Positions 18-37,551 of a DNA stretch of 37,637 nt are shown piece by piece. Made by a program: the position numbers and the translations under genes. Location of the stretch: contig FLMG01001430.1 of the NCBI GenBank assembly GCA_900088475.1, positions 1-37,637 on the forward strand, written 5' to 3'. Under the pieces are notes generated by a model that was not told the origin of the DNA, did no database searches, and worked only from the letters and a program-made list of their open reading frames with translations. The stretch is from Hyphochytrium catenoides. Taxonomy: Eukaryota > Sar > Hyphochytriomycetes > Hyphochytriales > Hyphochytriaceae. How positions within the stretch are numbered: the first letter of the stretch is position 1; the number at the start of each line of letters is the position of its first letter.

Positions 18-2939
<2,922 letters not shown>

Positions 2940-15472: not shown

Positions 15473-16800
15473 TAGCATATTTGTCCTGAAGACAAGGCTC
15501 ACATGGGGTTGGTGCCGACGAGGTGAGGCCATCTCGATGACTGCGGGACTTTTCACCCTTTCTTGCTCTGCCCCTCTCCCACTAGAAGCACGCCACAAGA
15601 CCAATCAGCGGTCACTGTCGACCATCGAGCAAGTCGAGCTTATACCTTATCTACACGCCTGTATCTACAAATACATCATAGATACATGCCTATTGTTCTT
15701 GATAGATGACAATAACGTGTCCAAAGTAAGGTCGACATGTCCTCTTTGTCCTTTGTAAGGAGATGTCGTACTCTGGTAACAGAGTGAGTGTTTGTTTCAA
15801 GATAGAGAACAGCGGGGACGAGAAAAGAAAAGTCCTCTCAATAAAGTCCTCGTTCTGTTGCCCCTACACCTGCCATAAGAAATAGAGCAGGAGAGCAATA
15901 TGACATCGAGACAGAGAATCATGAGACACGCAACTTGTACTCGTAGGTACAGTTTAAAAGTCAAAGAGAGATGGGCAAACAGAAGTAACAGAGGACAGAG
16001 AGAGGACAGTTAGAGGTTGACATAGATAGAGAGAACAAGAAGGAAAGGGCTAGGAGAATAGTGTTGATCTGTGAGACAATCCAGCCGGTATATTGGGAGC
16101 TCCTTATCAGAGGGCAACTACCAGGCCTACTCGACGGCTATCACCATATCGTCATTGAGTCAGTAGCCTCGGTTGCACTGGGTGTGGGGCGTTCATCCCT
16201 CATGTCGACTGTTACGGTCACCGTGAAGAATGTTTTGGAAGGTTGACCTAGTCTTCACTTTGTCCTACTCTGTCTGCTTTACTCTTGCTATCTATGGCAT
16301 TGTCATCCGTAGGTATATCCTTACTCTTCCTGATAAAGTTTTGACAAGTATTGTATCTATTCTGGTCCTCTGTCTTCCACCTCTAACCAGGAAGTTCCCT
16401 CTCGGTTGTTCCTTCCTCTTCCAATCGTTTTATGGTCGCCATCCAGCAAGAGTCAGTTCTTAGGTTCCACTCTTTTGTTCTCTTAGGGTAGTGCAAGAGG
16501 TGCTGACACATCTCCCTCCACTCTGTCTCTCAAGATGATTCATCTCCTTTCACTCTGTCTACTCCTCACCTCTTTTCTTACCCGTTTTCAAAATATATCT
16601 GCTCGTTCGGTTTTCCCGAATTTATCTCTCAAGTCATCTCTGTCTTTTTTGATAGGCTGCACCTGTTCAGGAGTGTACGCACGATAATAACTCCTCTTCC
16701 CTCCTCCGCTCCTTCATGTCACACTCTTCCATCGCCTTCTATTCAAAGAAGAGAGAGAGTGACACGTAGAGAATCTATCACGTCAACGGTTCTCCTTCTC

Positions 16801-16838
<38 letters not shown>

Positions 16839-16849
16839 CCTTCGCTCTC
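15473..16849. other. Unresolved region upstream of the kinase
   Basis: It contains exon-like open blocks, for example about 16079-16240 with alternative frames, and CT-rich stretches toward the gap. It may hold 5' exons of the kinase gene, whose start is in or before the N gap, but no exon could be matched to a family. Confidence 0.35.
16798..16836. repeat. (CT)n microsatellite next to the gap
   Basis: A nearly pure CT run ends a few bases before the Ns, a likely reason for the assembly break. Confidence 0.9.
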
Positions 16850-17282
16850 NNNNNNNNNNNNNNNNNNNNNNNNNNNNNNNNNNNNNNNNNNNNNNNNNNN
16901 NNNNNNNNNNNNNNNNNNNNNNNNNNNNNNNNNNNNNNNNNNNNNNNNNNNNNNNNNNNNNNNNNNNNNNNNNNNNNNNNNNNNNNNNNNNNNNNNNNNN
17001 NNNNNNNNNNNNNNNNNNNNNNNNNNNNNNNNNNNNNNNNNNNNNNNNNNNNNNNNNNNNNNNNNNNNNNNNNNNNNNNNNNNNNNNNNNNNNNNNNNNN
17101 NNNNNNNNNNNNNNNNNNNNNNNNNNNNNNNNNNNNNNNNNNNNNNNNNNNNNNNNNNNNNNNNNNNNNNNNNNNNNNNNNNNNNNNNNNNNNNNNNNNN
17201 NNNNNNNNNNNNNNNNNNNNNNNNNNNNNNNNNNNNNNNNNNNNNNNNNNNNNNNNNNNNNNNNNNNNNNNNNNNNNNNNNN
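16850..17282. other. Assembly gap (433 Ns)
   Basis: Run of unknown bases. It probably removes 5' sequence of the kinase gene, because the kinase frame is open right up to its edge. Confidence 0.99.
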
Positions 17283-17318
17283 ATTCCTGCTCAGGGAAAA
17301 GGAAGACCCGTTACCTTC

Positions 17319-18482
17319 ATGGCAGCTTCTGAGGAGCTGAGGAGCCAGTTCGTCTTCTACATCATGCAGAGTAGCAACAGTATCTCCCTCTCAGACTTCA
17401 AGATTCTGAGCGTTATAGGTAAAGGTTTCTTCGGGACCATACTGGTTGGCTATAAGAAGAATGATCCAGAGAAGAAGCTCTACGCACTAAAGGAGATCAA
17501 GATGTCAATCCTTAGAAATAGATCACGCATTGCGACGATTCAGGGCGAGAGAGCGATACTGCAGAAAGTGATAGGGAATCCGTTCATCGTAGGGCTGGAG
17601 TTTGCGTTTGCCAACGCTAACGCTCTCTACCTTGTGATGGAGTTTATGCCTGGAGGAGACTTTTTGAACTATATGAAGGCTCACAACGGGAGGTTGCCCA
17701 AGGAAAGCGTGCAGTTTTATGGCGCAGAACTTCTCCTAGCGCTGCAGCATCTTCATTCTATGGACATAGTCCATAGAGATCTGAAGCCTGAAAACATTCT
17801 TTTAGACAAAGATGGGCACCTCCGCCTGACGGATATGGGGCTGTCGAAGCAGCTCAAGAAGCACAACCTTGCCCACACGTTTTGCGGTACTGATGCTTAC
17901 CTTGCGCCAGAGATGCTTGACATAGACAACAAACGAGCACATGGAAAGCCGGTAGATTTTTGGCAGTACGGCAGTCTCATCTTTGAGATGTTTGTTGGAC
18001 GTCCGCCGTTCTATAAAAGAAACATCAACAGACATGACATCCACGAAGCTATCTTGGATAATGAAGTGGACATTCCGTCTTATATCCCTCAAGATGCTGC
18101 AGACCTTATCCGTAAGCTATTGGAGAAGGATCCAAGCAAGCGGTTGACAGACTGGGAGACGGTTAAACGCCATCCCTTCTTCACTGGACTAGACTGGGCG
18201 GCTGTGTACGGCAAAAAGCTCTCTCCTCCAGTAGAGTTCAAGACTGGAGAAGACTTCCTCAAGAACTTCGATGAGAATCTGACTAGCATTCCTCTGCGTA
18301 TTGAGCCGGCCCCTGAGTCTACAGCTGATGATTTCTACGGCTTCGACTTCACTCGCCCTTCGTCCTTTGGGGGTGGTGAGAGAGGGTTGACCAAGAAGAA
18401 GTCATCTCCTGTCCTTGAGAAATCAGTATCCACGCTATCTATGCACTCCGGGAAGCAGGTTGTTCTGACTGCTGCTTCCTAA
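17319..18482 (+). CDS. AGC-family Ser/Thr protein kinase
   Basis: The kinase domain and C-tail lie in a single uninterrupted exon of 387 codons from ATG 17319. Glycine loop GKGFFG (34-39); ATP-binding Lys58 in ALKE; probable helix-C Glu77; catalytic loop HRDLKPEN (153-160); a metal-binding motif that reads DMG (172-174) instead of DFG; activation-loop TFCGT with Thr187 at the PDK1 site; APE present. The C-tail carries a hydrophobic motif FYGFDF (339-344), with Asp where a phosphorylatable Ser/Thr usually sits, as in PKN kinases. This is an AGC kinase close to the PKA/Akt/PKN groups. The frame is open upstream of the ATG to the gap, with an acceptor-like CAG at 17292-17294. The residues there (GRPVTFMAASEELRSQF) resemble the last strand and helix of a PH domain, so the true start may lie in or before the gap. 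Confidence 0.94.
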   Translation: MAASEELRSQFVFYIMQSSNSISLSDFKILSVIGKGFFGTILVGYKKNDPEKKLYALKEIKMSILRNRSRIATIQGERAILQKVIGNPFIVGLEFAFANANALYLVMEFMPGGDFLNYMKAHNGRLPKESVQFYGAELLLALQHLHSMDIVHRDLKPENILLDKDGHLRLTDMGLSKQLKKHNLAHTFCGTDAYLAPEMLDIDNKRAHGKPVDFWQYGSLIFEMFVGRPPFYKRNINRHDIHEAILDNEVDIPSYIPQDAADLIRKLLEKDPSKRLTDWETVKRHPFFTGLDWAAVYGKKLSPPVEFKTGEDFLKNFDENLTSIPLRIEPAPESTADDFYGFDFTRPSSFGGGERGLTKKKSSPVLEKSVSTLSMHSGKQVVLTAAS

Positions 18483-25554: not shown

Positions 25555-28500
25555 CTACTCTTCTCCTGAAGAGGGAAGGTCCACGGAATCTTGCTTCTGC
25601 ACCCCTTTCGCGTTCAGCTGCCGAACGAACTCGCCCATCTGCTTCTCCAGCTCTGAGTGCGTAGCGCATCCGCCCGGGCACTCGCAGCATCCTCCATACT
25701 CTTTTGGCACCTGCCAGACAGATTGAAGTTAAAATTGTATCAATGCGGAAGTCCGACACTCTGTTTCTCCCTTGTCTCTCTCCTGTCATTGTCTGAGTTC
25801 CCTCCATCTCGTTCTCTTTTCCTCTGTCTCTTTCATTATCTCTGTCTGTCTGTCTTCTCTCTCCCAGCTTCTTCAGCCACTTCCTCACCTGTGAGGCATC
25901 TACCAGTTCTAAGAGCTCCTTCTCATATCCGCCTTTGTAGATTTTTGTCTTCTGTCTTGTCACTGGATGGACCAGCGGATACATCATCTTCCATATGACG
26001 TTGAACCAGGTAGGAACGTTGATCAGGAAGACTACATGGAGACGCTCAGGATAGTTCGGTCCCACGAACGCAGAAAGAGTCTTCACGAAGTCAAACAGTG
26101 GACCCGCCATATCTGAGAAGGAGATGCCTGGAAACCAGTAGAGAACAGGCATCAGAGGGTCAGAGACACATCTCTAGGGACTTCGAGCAACGAGGAGAAG
26201 AGATACGGGGCAAAAGTACTATTAACGCTCGGTATACTTTCACCTTTCAAGTCCATGATCTTCGTGACCCTTCCTCTAGGCCAGGGTCTGTTGTCTACAT
26301 ACTTCCATAAATATTCCTGTACAAAAGCGTAGTGAAGCAACAAGCTGTCGATAGGGACATTCTCCTCACGAAGAAGCTCGAACGAGCGCCGGCATGTGCC
26401 TGCTATCTCGTAGTTCACAGGGTGCCCTATTTCACGAAAGAGAAAGAAATGGAGATTTACGAAAAGGATGATAACGACAGGAGAGACCACCAAGTGGCGA
26501 AGCAGCCAGGAACCACAAGATGCAGGTCTATTAGCCAGCCGACATGGCTGCTTCGCCACAGATGACAAGACAGGCAAGAGTGGGAGACTGAACATATATG
26601 TGCAGGGAACTAGCACTCGCGTATGTGTTAGACCCGAAGGCTCAGAAATTGAAAGCAAGGAAGAGCTAGAGCTGGAATGAAGGAATAGTAAGCAGTAGGC
26701 GGTAGTACAGGTAGGAGAGAGAGAACAAAAAGAACGAGAGAGTTGTGAGAGCACACCTAGTTTGTCGTAGCCATGAAAGTATGACGGATAGCATCTTTTG
26801 ATCGTCTCAAAGTAAGGCTGAGGCGTGTTCAGCAGCTGTGGAATGTTAAAGTCCTTCACCCATTGTTGATGGACAGCATAACGGCGCTTCGCCTCTTCTA
26901 CGTTGCCTTGTGTGCACTTCAGGAAGCGAAGGGGAAGTCCTCCGCTATCCTCTTCTGCTCGCTCCTGTGCCTCCTGCTGTACCTCTGAAGCGATGCAGCT
27001 AGCAGGACGGGGTTGAGAAGAGAGAGACACACGGTAAATGCGAGGAACCAGAGCCAAAATGGCTAATTATCACTGAAGCTACTAACACCGAGAGGCAAAG
27101 TAACTTTGGCTTGTTTGCAATGCGAGCAATGGATAAGGAAAGAGGGAATAGCCCTTACCTTTCCTTATCTTCCTGCAGAGCTTCAAGTAGGTCCACTCCC
27201 TGCCTACAACCTAAGAAGGTTACCTTCCATGACTTGGCGTGGCTTCGCGTGGGAGGGTGAGCGACGCCTTGCATAAAGAGACAGAGGAAGACAACCCCAG
27301 CTGCGAAAGGTAGGACACTTTCTAGGCGGAGAGTTCCGGAAGATTGGACCACGCCGGAACTGAGAGCAATGCAAACTACCCCTAATCCTCCTAATATTAA
27401 GGGGGAGAGAGCTAGGAGGCGAAGGAAGAAGCGAGAGGTGGATGGCGCCGCCTCTTCCAGTCGAGATGCTCCGCCTTCCGAAACGCGCGTGAGCTCTAGT
27501 TCGAGCCCTATTTGTCTCGGAGTGTCTTCCTCTCCTTCTTGATCTTTGGCACCTTCTGCACTCAATGACTTCGTAGGGATCTGCAGAAGTGGCCACAATA
27601 CCCTCTTTCCTTGGCCATTCTGTCTCTCTCTTCCGAACGGAGCGCTAGGCGTTACTTTCTCCATGTCTTCTCTGCCGATTCTCGCCATCATGCCAGAAGA
27701 TAGATACACCCTAAGACCTTCTGCCGGAGAAAGACGAACTAACATAGAAGAGCCCCATGCAGACTCCCAGCCGATTATCCTCGCTCCCAAAGGAACGCTT
27801 TCTGGGCCCGCATCGACAAGGATCAAATTTATTCGGGTCTCTTCCTCTACCAATGGCTGATCCTCCTCGTATCTACAGAGGCGAGAACACAATGAGCTGC
27901 ATAGGGACAGAATCGTAAAGAATCACAGAAGGGCGGGGCAGACTGAAGGTCAACTTTTCGGAAGATAGACGTGTAGCGGGATAGTGGACAAGAAGGCGCA
28001 TAGAGAATAGCCGGACTACGGCGTACTCCTTATGCATGGAAGTGGAGACGTAAGTCAATTCTTGAAGAAAGGGATTGTCTCAGACGGAAGTTCAAGAGAG
28101 ACCTAGGCTCTTAAGACGAAGAAGAAGAGAGATGTGTACTTCAATACGAGAAAGAGAGAGGCGCGAGAGGGACGGAACGATAGAAAAGAGAGCAAGAGGT
28201 GGGAGTGAGACATGGACTCAGAAACACGGAAGGCATGGATCAAAGGGATAAGAACTTGCGAATATTCTCTGGAGACCCTCGTGCCAAGGGTACAGGGGGC
28301 AGCATGGTACATGACGACTTCTTTCTTACCCTTTGCTGAGATAGACTGGTTTAAGTGAGCCTTCCTTTGCCTTGGCAATTGTCTCCAACCAAAGGTCTCT
28401 GTCCTCTTGCGCCGGAAGTGCAAATACATGCTTTCGGGAACTCCTCTCACTCCTTACTCCCAAACAATATCTCTTCTCGCCTTGAGAGGACGTGAGTTCA

Positions 28501-29784
28501 AGGCCTCTGCTCTCCAGGCTTTCCAACATAAAGTGGCACCTCTCTTCGCCGAGGAGCGTCCCTTCTTGAGGACGGAAGACATGTAAGGCGGCGTTTGTTA
28601 GGACTAAGTGCCTCGAGTTCCATTGCCCAATCTTCGTGTTCTCTTTTGCAAAGCCGGACAGGATAACGCCGATGGAGGGAGAAGAACCATTTCCTCTGAG
28701 TTTCTCTTCCTCCTCACTCTTGATAGAGGCAAAGCAGTCCTTGCACACTCTTACAGGGAATAGGTACCCGTACTGAGGAAGAGGAGAGCGATGAGACGAG
28801 CAGCGTGCACAGAAGGAGAAGCCACATGCACGACAGTAGTGACGATAGCGATTGGATCCAGCACTTTGGATGCCATCGCGAAGTCTGCCTATAGCTCCGC
28901 CTGAGAACGAGATCCTCTGTGCTCTCGTGGGAAGAGGAGGTGAAGGAGCATTGACAGAGAATGAAGAAGACTCTCCATTTACCGCAGCAGGATCGTCAAA
29001 GCTATCGACTGGAGAGGCAGAGAGAGACACCGGTACTGTCGTCGCATCCAGGTGGAATGGGGAGGGAGGGGCACTACGGGTGAGTCTTGTCGCTTCTGGA
29101 GTACTTGGAGATGCATTGGCGGGAGAGACCACTACTGCTGGGGGAGGCAGCCTCTTCTCTCCCTCAGGACTTCCTGCCTCTTGTTTAAGCAGAACAGGGA
29201 GCTCCTGTCCGTGACAGCATATGAGATGAGATAATTGAATATCCAGCATTTTAAAAAAACAAGATCTAGCCATCTGAATGAACTATTCAATTGAGAACCA
29301 AAGCAGTAGCTGCTCTAGAAGGCTCTGGAAAGGCTGGAACTAGAAGGAAAGAAGCTGGAAGGCCGTAAAGTGCCAAGCATAGCAAATAGAGAGAAGGGCA
29401 TCTCCAGGGAGAAAGGGCCACTTGGGGCTGGAGACAGAGACAAACAAGGAGTAGACTCAGCATTGTGAAGAGGCAAATAGACACATATCAAAGGTAGCTC
29501 TGCGCTACATAGGTCAAGAGACAGGCTTGCAAGAGAGCATCCGGCTAGCTAGGGTGCGGTAGACAAAGGACAAGACTCTATTAGGGTTAGAAGAGCCATA
29601 CCACCGTATCCTGCTGACTCTCGCCAGCGGGAGAAGAAGATGCTGAGAAGTTTGGAGCTGAGCTGGAGGAGTTCCTTGTCGGCACCAGGGAGAAAAGAGG
29701 AGCCTTGCAGGCCTTGCAGTGTGTGCTGCGCTTGCGGCGAGGTGGATTGGAGGTCTTCCGCCTCCTCCTCAGGGAGGAGATCAT
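25555..29784 (-). CDS. FYVE-PH-transmembrane-Sec14 (CRAL-TRIO) multidomain protein, 7 exons
   Basis: Likely a phosphoinositide-responsive membrane lipid-transfer protein. Exons (minus strand): 29784-29602, 29204-28330, 27872-27159, 26998-26757, 26426-26244, 26127-25889, 25710-25555; all are in phase, giving 863 residues. Order: basic N-terminus and CKAC (Cys23/26); Ser/Pro-rich linker; FYVE-like cluster [17 protein letters not shown] and PVRVCKDCF (about 180-220); PH domain (about 241-342; [18 protein letters not shown], closing Trp in [10 protein letters not shown]); an uncharacterised beta-rich segment (about 354-420); two hydrophobic helices about 501-527 and 537-556 forming a TM hairpin; Sec14 domain about 600-825 ([42 protein letters not shown]); Cys-rich tail [12 protein letters not shown] and PH domains bind phosphoinositides, and Sec14 moves phosphatidylinositol or other lipids. 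The ATG at 29784 is the first plausible one, but an upstream exon is not excluded. Confidence 0.88.
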
Positions 29785-30974: not shown

Positions 30975-32397
30975 TTAACTGATCATCATTCCATCATCAT
31001 CATCACTCTCATCGCGATTGAGTTTGGCTCTACGCTTTCTCTCTCTGTTGAACTCCAGCAGAGCGGGACCGCCAGGTATGTAGCCACGCAGATCACCTGA
31101 GCTTTTTAGATCTGGTGCGTCCATCGCAGTAAGGACGGCTACCGCTTCAAAAATTAGCTCTTGCACGTTATTGACCGTACATCCATACTTCACCATCAGG
31201 TCCCAGCAGCGGCTCAGTACGCGGTCACTGTATCGGCTGCGGCCAGTTCCTGAGCCTTTTCCCTAAACGCAACGGTAGAAAGGCAGACAAAGCGTGTTAG
31301 AGCCCCCGAAAGTAACGATTGAAAGTCTCTAGCGACCTTAGTCGTCCTAGGATCTGCTAAACGCAGATGAGGTTTGCTGGCATTTGTCGCCAGGCGCCTT
31401 ATGGATTGCTGTGCTTCTTCAAGCTGGCCTCTGAGCTCCTCTTCCCTCTCCTGCTGGTCTTTGATTGTTTGCCTGAGAGTTTCTATGATCGCTTTCTGCT
31501 CTGCCTGGAATGTTGGTCCTAGATGGTGGCTTCTTGGCCGCAAACTACTATCCTCGATGGCTGGAGGGTCGTCGCGCGTCTCCTCATGCCGTTCGTAGAG
31601 GTTGATAAGAGCTAACACGGCCTCTCGACGATAGCCTGACAAGCCTAGACTCAGCCCAGTATAGGAAAGTAATCAACAGAAGGATCCACCTTTATCCACT
31701 TCAAGTAGCCCCTTGAAAGTCTTCTGAAGCCACAGCCTGGAAGCCCTTCTGTTTGCTAATATTGTCTTCCGTCGTTGGCGCCGTTCCTTAGAAGAACTCA
31801 TTTGTTGTTCAGCAGCAGGAGGGCGTGCGGTTATTTGACGTCTTTTCCTTTTTCTTGTGACCCTTTCTCTTCGCTGGGCCTCTGACGGACGGTAGAATGT
31901 CAATCGCAATGGGAGCACAGCATCACTCAACATTTGTTTCGTGCATGAAAGCTGCTCTTGGTGGACCTTCTTCAGAGGTATCTGTTGAGACAGAATAGGT
32001 TCGGTGGCGGTGAGGATTCACAAGGTTTATTTATCGAATTGGCTTTTATTAGGCAGTTGAGTAGCACTCTTACCTGCCGGCCATTCACCTTAAAAAGCAC
32101 ATCCCCCACTTGAAGCTTGTTGCTCTCTTCTGCGCGGCCCCCTGGAATTATCTCAGTCAGTGCAACAGCTAGGCTGTTATGGGCGCAACTCGAAGCTCCA
32201 GCCTTAAAGGTGAGACCAAGAGGCTTGTCTTCAAAGATGACATCAAAAAGTGATGCCAAAAACTCTTCTTCTTCGTTCTGACCACCATTTGTCACGCGTA
32301 TATCGATTGAAGCAGGCTCCACTTCAGAGAACGGAGTGGGTTGTGATAGCGCTTTTTTTGCGCCATCGTCATTGCATGTACCGCCCTCAGATTCCAT
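30975..32397 (-). CDS. PDZ-domain protein with basic region and coiled coil, 4 exons
   Basis: Probable scaffold protein. Exons (minus strand): 32397-32074, 31981-31690, 31644-31337, 31262-30975; in phase, giving 403 residues from the ATG at 32397. The PDZ domain covers about residues 55-140 and is cut by intron 1: FDVIFEDKPLGLTF (carboxylate-binding loop PLGLTF), EIIPGGRAEESNKLQVGD, KVNGRQ and then LSDAVLPLRLTFYRP. A very basic stretch follows (RRERVTRKRKRRQ, then KERRQRRK), possibly a nuclear or membrane-binding signal. A coiled coil comes next (EQKAIIETLRQTIKDQQERE) and then an unassigned C-terminal region ending in Arg/Lys and Asp runs. The third intron (31336-31263, 74 bp) was inferred from the frame change and a CTAAC plus TTTAG acceptor. 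PDZ domains bind C-terminal peptides; the ligand is unknown. Confidence 0.83.
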
Positions 32398-33136
32398 ACT
32401 CAAATTTTTCAACTACCCACACCACCACCTGCTGTGCACCTCAGTAACTACGGAAGACCAGCGAGGTTGACGAGCCAGGCAGCAAGCTCTTATGTTGTTA
32501 CCGAACGATCTATCATAGTGCACCCTCACAGTCTTCCTTACACCTCGGACAGTATATGTATGGTATGTTGTCATCTATCATCTTTACGGCGTCCTAGAGC
32601 TTTGCATATACTCAAAGACTCATCAGAAGTCTGGAGAAGAAGAGGAAGTGGAGATCGAAGATCGAAGCCTGAAAGCTCTATCAAAACGGATTTTTCTGTC
32701 AGATCCCTGCTTCCCTTTCTGAACTGGATCGTCTGAGGAGAATCAATATTGTGATAACCGATACTATTGATCTGGCAGCCTTGAGCCTTTCATAGAAATA
32801 ATGTCAAGGTTGATTCTCCATAGACCACCCTATAATAACTTGAAATAATCCCACTTGTTTGTTTCTTTCGATAGCTTCCCAGCCACCCAATGATGGCCTT
32901 GGTCAATAGTAGTACTGCTCATCACCAAAACATTAGAGGCTTACAATGGTAGTAGTAATGCTTGGGGATGGCCTTAACATTTGTTAGCGGACAGTGCCGC
33001 GGATTCAGCGCGGCACCGATTGATGGTGGCGAAGAAGTGGGGCTCAACTTGGGCGCAATAAGCTTCGTGCAGTCTTCACTTTGCGCTCTTCTCCTTCTCT
33101 TCCAGCAGCTTGTGGAGTGCTCCATAGACAGGAACC
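32398..33136. other. Divergent promoter region between the PDZ and eS24 genes
   Basis: About 740 bp between the two start codons. Just before the eS24 ATG there is a pyrimidine tract (CTCTTCTCCTTCTCTTCCAG, 33087-33106) that could be a TOP-like transcription start or the acceptor of a 5' UTR intron. Otherwise nothing was recognised. Confidence 0.5.
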
Positions 33137-34872: not shown

Positions 34873-37551
34873 TTACACCGCATCCAGCTGCTTCTTGGAA
34901 GTTCCTCCTTCTTCGTCGTTTTCTTTTCTATGGAGTGGGGGAGGGCTGCTAGGCTTCTCTGAAGGGGACTCGTCATGATCGTCCGTGATTTTGAACGCGG
35001 GCTCTTGCTCTGAGTTGGACTCTGGAATGTCAAGCCGGATTTTGTCTGGAGTGATGGAATGGACCTCAATCGCCGTTCCGTTCTTCTGTTTCTCTGCCTC
35101 CTTCTCGCTTGTTGGCAGCTGTGAAGACCAGTGAGTCCGAAAGAAAGGGGCGTGACGAGGTGAGGAAGACAAAGACTGTAGGGACGAGAATTAGGGTGGA
35201 GAGTGCGCTACTAATAAATATTCAAAGAGGTGACTTGATAGACGTAGGAAGCGACAAAAAACGCGACAAACCCTCGTAAGAATGCGACAGAAACAAAGGG
35301 CCGCGGGCCATGAGTCGTCAGCATTTACCTGCTGTGAGTAAGCGTACATATAGCTCACTCTAGTCGGCCGCCATATAATGCAAATGGCGGCGACGACCAG
35401 GAACAAAAGCAGTTTTTGCAGGGAAGAGAGCCACGCAAACTTCCAGTACGCCTGTTGGTCGAAGTCGAAGAAATATCCGTTGCTAAAGCATGAAAGACGG
35501 AGAGATTAGTTATAGTCAGAGATTGCTTCGCCAAGATCACCATCGTCCATTTCCCATTAGATACCATCAGCAAGCAGGCCCAGGAAAAAGAAAACGACAC
35601 GACACAACTTGCACTAGAACAGCTCTGAGAGAGGTGTACAGGTGTAGCCTACAAGAAGAGATATCGGCCTAGTCTCATAGAATATATGATGCAAGAGATA
35701 CTTTTGCTTACATTCCGAGGTCGACCAGCAGTAACAAACAAGCTGCCACGACATAGGTCAGATATATCCAATACAGCCAGATATACATCTTCTTCTTTGC
35801 TTCCTGGTTGTTGTCATGCAGTTGGTCTCTTGTCTTACTGATGGCTGCGTAGATCCAAACAGCAAAACAGGCGTTTGCACCAAAACATACTAGCTGCCAG
35901 CGCTGATATAGGTCCTGGGAACTGCCAACTTCCGGCGATGACTTTGGATAGAGAATTGGTTCAAAAAGAGTTAGCCAATGGTAAAGATCGACGAGGGAGA
36001 AGCTAATAAAGCTGCTGCAAGCTGATAACGCCACGGAAGCTGCGCGCCCATATTGCAAAGAGAAGGCTCAGATTACATGGAAGAAGTGAGCTGGTAGACA
36101 GTGGAACTGGCTATCCTTCTCACCTGAATGGTATAAAGTTCGACCTGTACCATCAGCCCTGACACCGCGTAGAGTACGCCAAGAGCGGCAACTATGATCA
36201 CCTCCTTCAAGGTAAGTCTCGGTCTTACCACTCCGTAGCCCAGCCCAATGATCAGTATCAGGATCCTAGCAGCTGTTCTCAAAAAGACATCCAGTAGAGT
36301 GCCAGCGTAGAGAGCGTCTGGAGTGGGACAGCAGGCAGGGACACCTGAAGCATTGATCTCCAAGAACCCAGCGAATGTGGTTAGGGAGGCCGCTGTCATG
36401 ATGACGAGCACAGGAATAATCAGCCACTGGAGCCAAATACTAGTGGACCGGTGTCTGCAAGGAATGTGGGTAGAAAGCCGCAAGTCAGACGATCACCATT
36501 CCGACATCAATTGCGAGTACCATGGGAGGTATGGAAAGAGAATAGAACAGGTGAAAAGTCGACATAGAGAGACCAAAGAACGCGAACTGGAGCTGTTGGC
36601 AGTAAGAGAGCGAGTTCGCAAAGACATTCTAGTCACGGCAAGATTGGAGAGTAAAGAACGAAAGATACAACGATTGGCCAGCATATACGCGAGGAGAGGA
36701 GTCTTCGAGGCAGAGGACAAAGAGAAGACCTGCTGGTTTGATGAAGAGTAATGGTAGAAAAAGAGAGTGAACGAGAGAGACGAGACAAAAAACAGAGGAG
36801 GAGGAAGACGAGTAGAAGAAGCAGGTAAACTAAAGAGGCTAGTAAGTTTGAGAGGGGATGGTGACTGGCCAGTGAGTTGAGTCAGAAGGAAGGATATAGT
36901 AGATCAGGCTAGCACAGAAGGGAACTAGAAGTGTAGCTTCATACCTGCAGAAGATACACAGGAAGATAAGATCCAATAGGCCTGTGAGTGCGAAGACCAG
37001 TCCAGACACGACGACCTGGCCGTACCACGAGGCCGGAAGCCAGCCATAGGGATTATGAAACTTCAGATCCGCATCCGCTGTCACAGTGATGCCAGTATAG
37101 TCGGTGCATAGAGACAGAACAACAGTTTGCAGGCCTAGAAAAACACCAGTTTGTTAGCAACCACGGAGAATCGGGAGCGGCGCCGCGGTTGACTTCTCTC
37201 TTTCTTCTGTCTCTTTCTCTCTCTTTCTCTCTCTTCTTCTATTGTTCTCCCTCTCTCTGACTGTCTTGCTTAATGTGCCGGATAAACACTTATCAGCATC
37301 GCTTCTTCACCTTCTCTATTCACTTGGAAGAGTGCTACTCCGTCTGAGCCATTGATAGCAACAGGGATCATGTTGGTGCTGTTGTCTGGGGCAGTGGAGT
37401 TGAAAGTGAAGAACTGTTGCTTGTACGGCGCCTTCCAGTGCTCTTCGATATAAGAACACTCGTTGCCAAGCTCGTCACCGGGACCAAGAAGAACCACCGA
37501 CGCAGCTGCTTTAACCCCTGGAGGGACCTGGGCGCTGAGGTTCAGGCTGAC
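34873..37551 (-). CDS. Second GOST-family seven-transmembrane protein, 5'-partial, 6 exons seen
   Basis: Same family and likely trafficking role as the gene at 19199-22309. Exons (minus strand): 37551-37290, 37134-36945, 36454-36124, 35914-35712, 35482-35329, 35118-34873; in phase, 461 residues visible. The first visible exon starts at an acceptor (CTACAG, phase 0), so the signal peptide exon lies beyond the window. The lumenal part has several N-glycosylation sequons (NST, NGS). Hallmarks: HNPYGWLPASWYGQ, a CCP loop, IGLGYGVVRPRL, AVWIYAAISKTRDQ, IIWRPTRVSYMYA. The C-terminal tail is acidic, Ser/Pro-rich and charged. The acceptor at 35914 was chosen because it alone joins in phase with a loop length close to the paralogue; a longer open frame upstream to 36058 would need a different phase. 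Confidence 0.87.
37195..37258. repeat. (CT)n tract in an intron of the second GOST gene
   Basis: CT-rich on the + strand although the gene is on the minus strand, so purine-rich on the sense strand; an exception to the usual orientation. Confidence 0.9.

Follow-up and report, generated by a model that had tools for sequence, protein, structure and literature searches.

Gene model and domain architecture

A predicted gene occupies positions 29784-25555 on the minus strand of the window, that is, of the whole 37,637-nucleotide stretch of DNA analysed here (Table 1). The preliminary description had joined seven exons in phase, and rejoining them reproduced an open frame of 863 residues followed by a stop codon; all six introns have GT-AG ends (397, 457, 160, 330, 116 and 178 bases in length). 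The join between exons 1 and 2 is the one soft junction of the model. Codon-usage scoring indicated a weak coding bias: for exon 1 a wrong frame outscored that of the model, and the scores of intron 6 resembled those of an exon. The combination of a FYVE domain, a PH domain, two hydrophobic helices and a complete CRAL-TRIO (Sec14) domain that had been read from the letters is borne out by hydropathy analysis and by the HMM domain scan proposed at that time, in which FYVE, PH and CRAL_TRIO each exceed the Pfam cut-off.

Table 1 Coordinates of the predicted gene's features and of other frames in the window
Feature	Position	Strand	Content
Exon 1	29602..29784	-	aa 1-61; ATG; CKAC (aa 23-26, 29707-29718), the first zinc pair of FYVE
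Exon 2	28330..29204	-	aa 62-352 and 2 further nt; S/P-rich insert, other FYVE zinc ligands, PH
Exon 3	27159..27872	-	middle region of unassigned fold and hydrophobic pair
Exon 4	26757..26998	-	pre-CRAL-TRIO helices, then start of CRAL-TRIO
Exon 5	26244..26426	-	CRAL-TRIO
Exon 6	25889..26127	-	CRAL-TRIO with E760, T789 and K792
Exon 7	25555..25710	-	end of CRAL-TRIO (VPKEYGG), then stop
S/P-rich insert	29602-29685 and 28851..29204	-	aa 34-61 and aa 62-179; separates the first FYVE zinc pair from the second; length varies with the exon 1/2 join
FYVE core	28719..28850	-	aa 180-223; Pfam
PH domain	28365..28664	-	aa 242-341; Pfam 29.9 bits, cut-off 25.1
Hydrophobic pair	27260..27418	-	aa 505-523 and 539-557; Kyte-Doolittle
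Protein kinase frame	16770-18479	+	open frame of 570 aa; strong protein kinase domain, E 1.3e-62
GOST-type frame	36076-36492	-	partial GOST-type seven-transmembrane domain, 38.8 bits
PDZ frame	31976-32412	-	PDZ domain, 26.8 bits
Carbamoyltransferase pieces	1617-2273	+	weak aspartate/ornithine carbamoyltransferase pieces, both under the Pfam cut-off

Pfam was also run on other frames of the window, covering 10 of its 128 open reading frames. The kinase frame overlaps two blocks, each 1 kb long, with GC contents of 39% and 34%, as against 45-54% in the other blocks, and is possibly of foreign or mobile origin.

The FYVE finger and its insert

The FYVE match scores 42.0 bits, above the cut-off, and spans profile positions 22-66 of 67 only. 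All eight zinc ligands are present (C23, C26, C185, C188, C193, C196, C215 and C218), with non-canonical spacing: the first pair lies in exon 1, across the insert from C185-C218 in exon 2. In the model the insert comprises 146 residues and falls in the loop after the first zinc pair; of the 145 insert residues that were counted, about half are S, P, T or A. It is this loop that known FYVE domains push into the membrane. Shifting the exon 1/2 junction does not abolish the insert, as it retains at least 22 residues in every one of the 45 in-frame GT-AG choices, the model's own included (range 22-146). Judged by eye, the zinc-pair stretch of exon 1 resembles CHVCNAALRLL of the environmental protein P0123, a related sequence described below, although MAFFT left it unaligned; set directly before RYRHYC, it would have the spacing found in CHVCNAALRLLRLRHHC of P0123, again by eye and in an arrangement that MAFFT did not produce.

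The hallmark motifs of FYVE domains are WxxD, R(R/K)HHCR and RVC. The window protein has RYRHYCR (RHYCR in place of RHHCR) and RVC; no WxxD occurs near the finger, the sole WxxD of the chain being at 637, within Sec14. By eye, P0123 and its relative P0124 display RHHCR and RVC; these are the two relatives in which the start of the FYVE domain is present, and neither contains a WxxD, P0125 and P0126 being cut at that end. Because WxxD is missing near the finger and a long S/P-rich insert interrupts its loop, PI3P binding is uncertain: judging from these motifs it is possible but unsafe to assume. Reading of PI3P by the FYVE domain is therefore less sure than was proposed earlier.

PH domain, middle region and hydrophobic pair

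At a Kyte-Doolittle threshold of 1.3 over 19 residues, two separate hydrophobic stretches of the window protein pass, with a gap of 15 residues between them. Such a pair is consistent with a hairpin that would leave both ends of the protein on one side of the membrane.

Between the PH domain and the hydrophobic pair (aa 353-495) lies a region of ~100-140 residues that the window protein has in common with P0123 and P0124 and in which Pfam found no match in any of the three. It appears strand-rich only in a low-confidence AlphaFold2 model of P0123, which was computed from a four-row alignment and, with a mean pLDDT of 37, is unusable as structural support.

The Sec14 domain and its likely ligand

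CRAL_TRIO matches at 112.6 bits over aa 659-819 and is complete (profile positions 2-153 of 153). Among solved structures, matches comprise yeast Sec14, SEC14-like proteins and several FYVE domains; the profile of the family alignment A1 retrieves the yeast Sec14 chain with E 1.8e-31. Yeast Sec14 and Sfh1 are soluble, single-domain proteins. The window protein shares with them the complete CRAL-TRIO domain and their E207 and K239: when the corresponding stretches are aligned to yeast Sec14, E760 and K792 occupy these two positions, as placed by the YPE motif and by a spacing of 32 residues, which also separates E207 from K239. T789 takes the position of yeast T236. PMC4331669 reports that in yeast Sec14 neither E207 nor K239 can be dispensed with for PI transfer in vitro. 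In all four relatives the glutamate is kept, and the K239 position, unlike that of the window protein, holds arginine. From these residues PtdIns appears the likeliest ligand of the domain. An intact PI barcode is nevertheless no proof of a PtdIns ligand, since Sfh5 keeps one and is no PITP according to PMC7462610.

Relatives with the same domain order

With the Sec14 region as query, 511 candidates were scored and four reached E <=0.001. One of them, P0124, is the deposited [Pythium] brassicae hypothetical protein PybrP1_005212 (862 aa); P0123 (794 aa), P0125 and P0126 are environmental proteins. Their identity to the window protein is 43-45% in the Sec14 region and 30-32% overall, and alignment A1 contains shared positions in PH, the middle region, the hydrophobic pair and Sec14. 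An earlier search with aa 190-863 scored 7,991 candidates, returned only two distant Sec14 proteins and missed all four relatives, so absence in searches of that kind is weak evidence.

Along the chain, the four relatives have the same order as the window protein in A1: FYVE, PH-like, middle region, hydrophobic pair, CRAL-TRIO, with two of the four rows starting inside FYVE. CRAL_TRIO exceeds the cut-off in every relative and FYVE in three, and the hydrophobic pair is present in all. The first FYVE zinc pair is found in two; P0125 and P0126 start within the finger, and both sequences probably lack residues at that end. Several features distinguish the relatives from the window protein. Their PH-like regions, at 15.5-16.4 bits, all stay below the cut-off of 25.1, and their C-termini are longer. 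By eye, P0123 and P0124 have a compact FYVE finger that lacks the long insert and carries CxxH at the site of the third CxxC. In three of the four, the first hydrophobic helix is weak (octanol scores of 0.8, -0.6 and 0.2 versus 6.9 in the window protein), and the two best hydrophobic windows overlap in both P0123 and P0126.

By sequence, the window protein is thus no one-off; it is one of an uncharacterised family that is already deposited. The preliminary description could name no protein with this architecture, and in the literature searched, with subscription journals mostly outside coverage, we likewise found no description of FYVE and CRAL-TRIO in one chain. That part stands, but the architecture is not unique, as it is deposited as a hypothetical protein.

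Paralogous loci and kinship of the genome

The genome (1,105 contigs, 42.5 Mb) contains four CRAL_TRIO matches, all above the cut-off, located in the window and on C219, C339 and C1006. At C219, four joined exons encode a PH domain that exceeds the cut-off (37.8 bits); further downstream come an exon in which a hydrophobic pair can be read by eye and then CRAL_TRIO at 97.0 bits, the order being read on DNA. No FYVE match occurs in the 2 kb upstream, which is all that the contig offers. The pair precedes Sec14 at three of the four loci, PH is found at two and FYVE at one, the match on C1006 falling in a partly withheld locus. FYVE itself gives 32 matches in the whole genome, 29 of them above the cut-off, counted exon by exon. 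The Sec14 paralogue at C339 (L025 7074-9813) carries CRAL_TRIO (58.1 bits, second half) with a hydrophobic pair in front and, judged by eye, several more hydrophobic stretches behind; no PH was seen at this locus.

Four relatives with the same domain order, together with a paralogous locus that combines PH, hairpin and Sec14, indicate that the FYVE-PH-TM-Sec14 fusion is very probably real, and the order shared by the relatives makes chance assembly very unlikely. The single fused protein with a hairpin-like pair that had been proposed is upheld by these findings. Its stated counter-case, a separate FYVE-PH and TM-Sec14, is contradicted by P0124, one continuous predicted protein, and by P0123, whose contig is 2,489 bases long and so has space for only ~100 bases of intron.

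HSP90 was used to place the genome. Among the best 120 of 7,999 rows, the top named full-length oomycetes reach 82-85% (Thraustotheca, Pythium insidiosum, Saprolegnia, Achlya, Aphanomyces, Globisporangium and Phytophthora), and the others include Albugo at 80%, Chrysoparadoxa at 82%, Heterosigma at 81%, Cyclotella at 80% and Nannochloropsis at 79%; one environmental protein stands at 91%. Three long plant rows (P0003, P0004 and P0006; 74%) were set aside. By this mainly single-gene comparison, with its small margin, the genome is most likely that of a non-photosynthetic stramenopile near the oomycetes. An alga and an alveolate were considered and rejected: an exon-by-exon search with prokaryote controls gave no match to PF00504 (light-harvesting) or to PF12314 (alveolin), results that we count as supporting only.

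Discussion

Membrane-anchored lipid-transfer proteins with phosphoinositide readers are a known kind, and the present architecture is uncharacterised rather than unseen, as sequence databases hold it. Protrudin (ZFYVE27) carries its FYVE domain at the C-terminus, along with a Rab11-binding region and an FFAT motif. Its helices lie N-terminal to FYVE, whereas in the window protein FYVE lies N-terminal to the hydrophobic pair, so that the order of protrudin is not the one found here. The likeness consists in the union of FYVE and membrane helices at ER-late endosome contacts; no Sec14 or PH is described for protrudin in the available sections of PMC9692390. According to the same sections, MOSPD2 joins CRAL-TRIO to a TM anchor in the ER and acts at contact sites, but has a single C-terminal TM and an MSP domain, with no FYVE or PH described (PMC9692390). 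Sec14 proteins of Toxoplasma and Plasmodium include PH and TM among their domains in a figure legend of PMC10543664 that names domains, the combinations per protein lying beyond it; FYVE is not among the domains of this legend.

We favour, with confidence and doubt in balance, a membrane-anchored Sec14-type protein that would transfer or present PtdIns at a phosphoinositide-marked membrane recognized via PH and, less surely, FYVE; the site could be an ER-endosome contact. The hydrophobic helices would anchor the protein as a hairpin, a topology in which the head with FYVE-PH and the tail with Sec14 would both face the cytosol. The head, whichever phosphoinositide it may read, would dock on a marked (endosomal) membrane, and the tail would take up PtdIns and deliver or present it there, which would couple lipid supply to membrane identity. 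If the hairpin lies in the ER, the protein would be an ER-endosome contact-site lipid-transfer protein; by analogy, we infer that this version best parallels protrudin and MOSPD2. For this reading we count the architecture, the four relatives, the C219 locus, E760/K792 and the precedents of protrudin and MOSPD2. Against it we count the motif and insert features of the window FYVE (no WxxD, RHYCR, an interrupted finger) and, in the relatives, the sub-threshold PH, the weak first helix and the arginine at the K239 position.

A version confined to one membrane fits nearly as well as the ER-endosome contact. Here the hairpin would sit in the endosome or vacuole membrane, FYVE-PH would read that same membrane and Sec14 would present PtdIns to a local PI kinase, all in cis and with no tethering. 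The same domains fit, and presentation of PtdIns to kinases is a Sec14 role given in PMC10543664 and drawn as a model in PMC10225987. However, PMC9692390 describes proteins that combine a TM anchor with a lipid reader as also binding another stretch of membrane, and we regard action purely in cis as somewhat unlikely.

Less probable still, and in our view unlikely, is a lipid sensor or scaffold without transfer, in which FYVE would not bind PI3P, PH would target weakly and Sec14 would hold a non-PI ligand. The absence of WxxD near the finger, RHYCR, the finger insert and the weak PH of the relatives are all compatible with such a protein, as is the precedent of Sfh5; yet E760 and K792 are kept, and the window protein retains RVC and all eight zinc cysteines. 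Two adjacent genes joined in error, for which one may cite that the model was predicted from DNA alone and that its exon 1/2 junction is soft, are extremely improbable and were set aside given the fusion seen in P0123 to P0126 and the paralogous locus on C219.

Going beyond the favoured reading, one may imagine that oomycetes and their kin possess a family of PI-transfer tethers anchored in the ER. In the lineage of the window protein, a long S/P-rich disordered stretch would have opened the membrane-inserting loop of FYVE; phosphorylation, for instance, could then switch endosome docking on or off, and the reader itself would gate lipid delivery. We consider this conjecture a long shot.

Multidomain Sec14 proteins are described in PMC10543664 for Toxoplasma and in PMC10341546 for Leishmania, in the latter case with Sec14 joined to CAP-Gly, and the family described here would add stramenopiles to them. 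Its members would unite two predicted phosphoinositide readers, a putative membrane anchor and Sec14 in one chain. If bridging between ER and endosome is true, this would be a lipid-transfer tether made of one protein.
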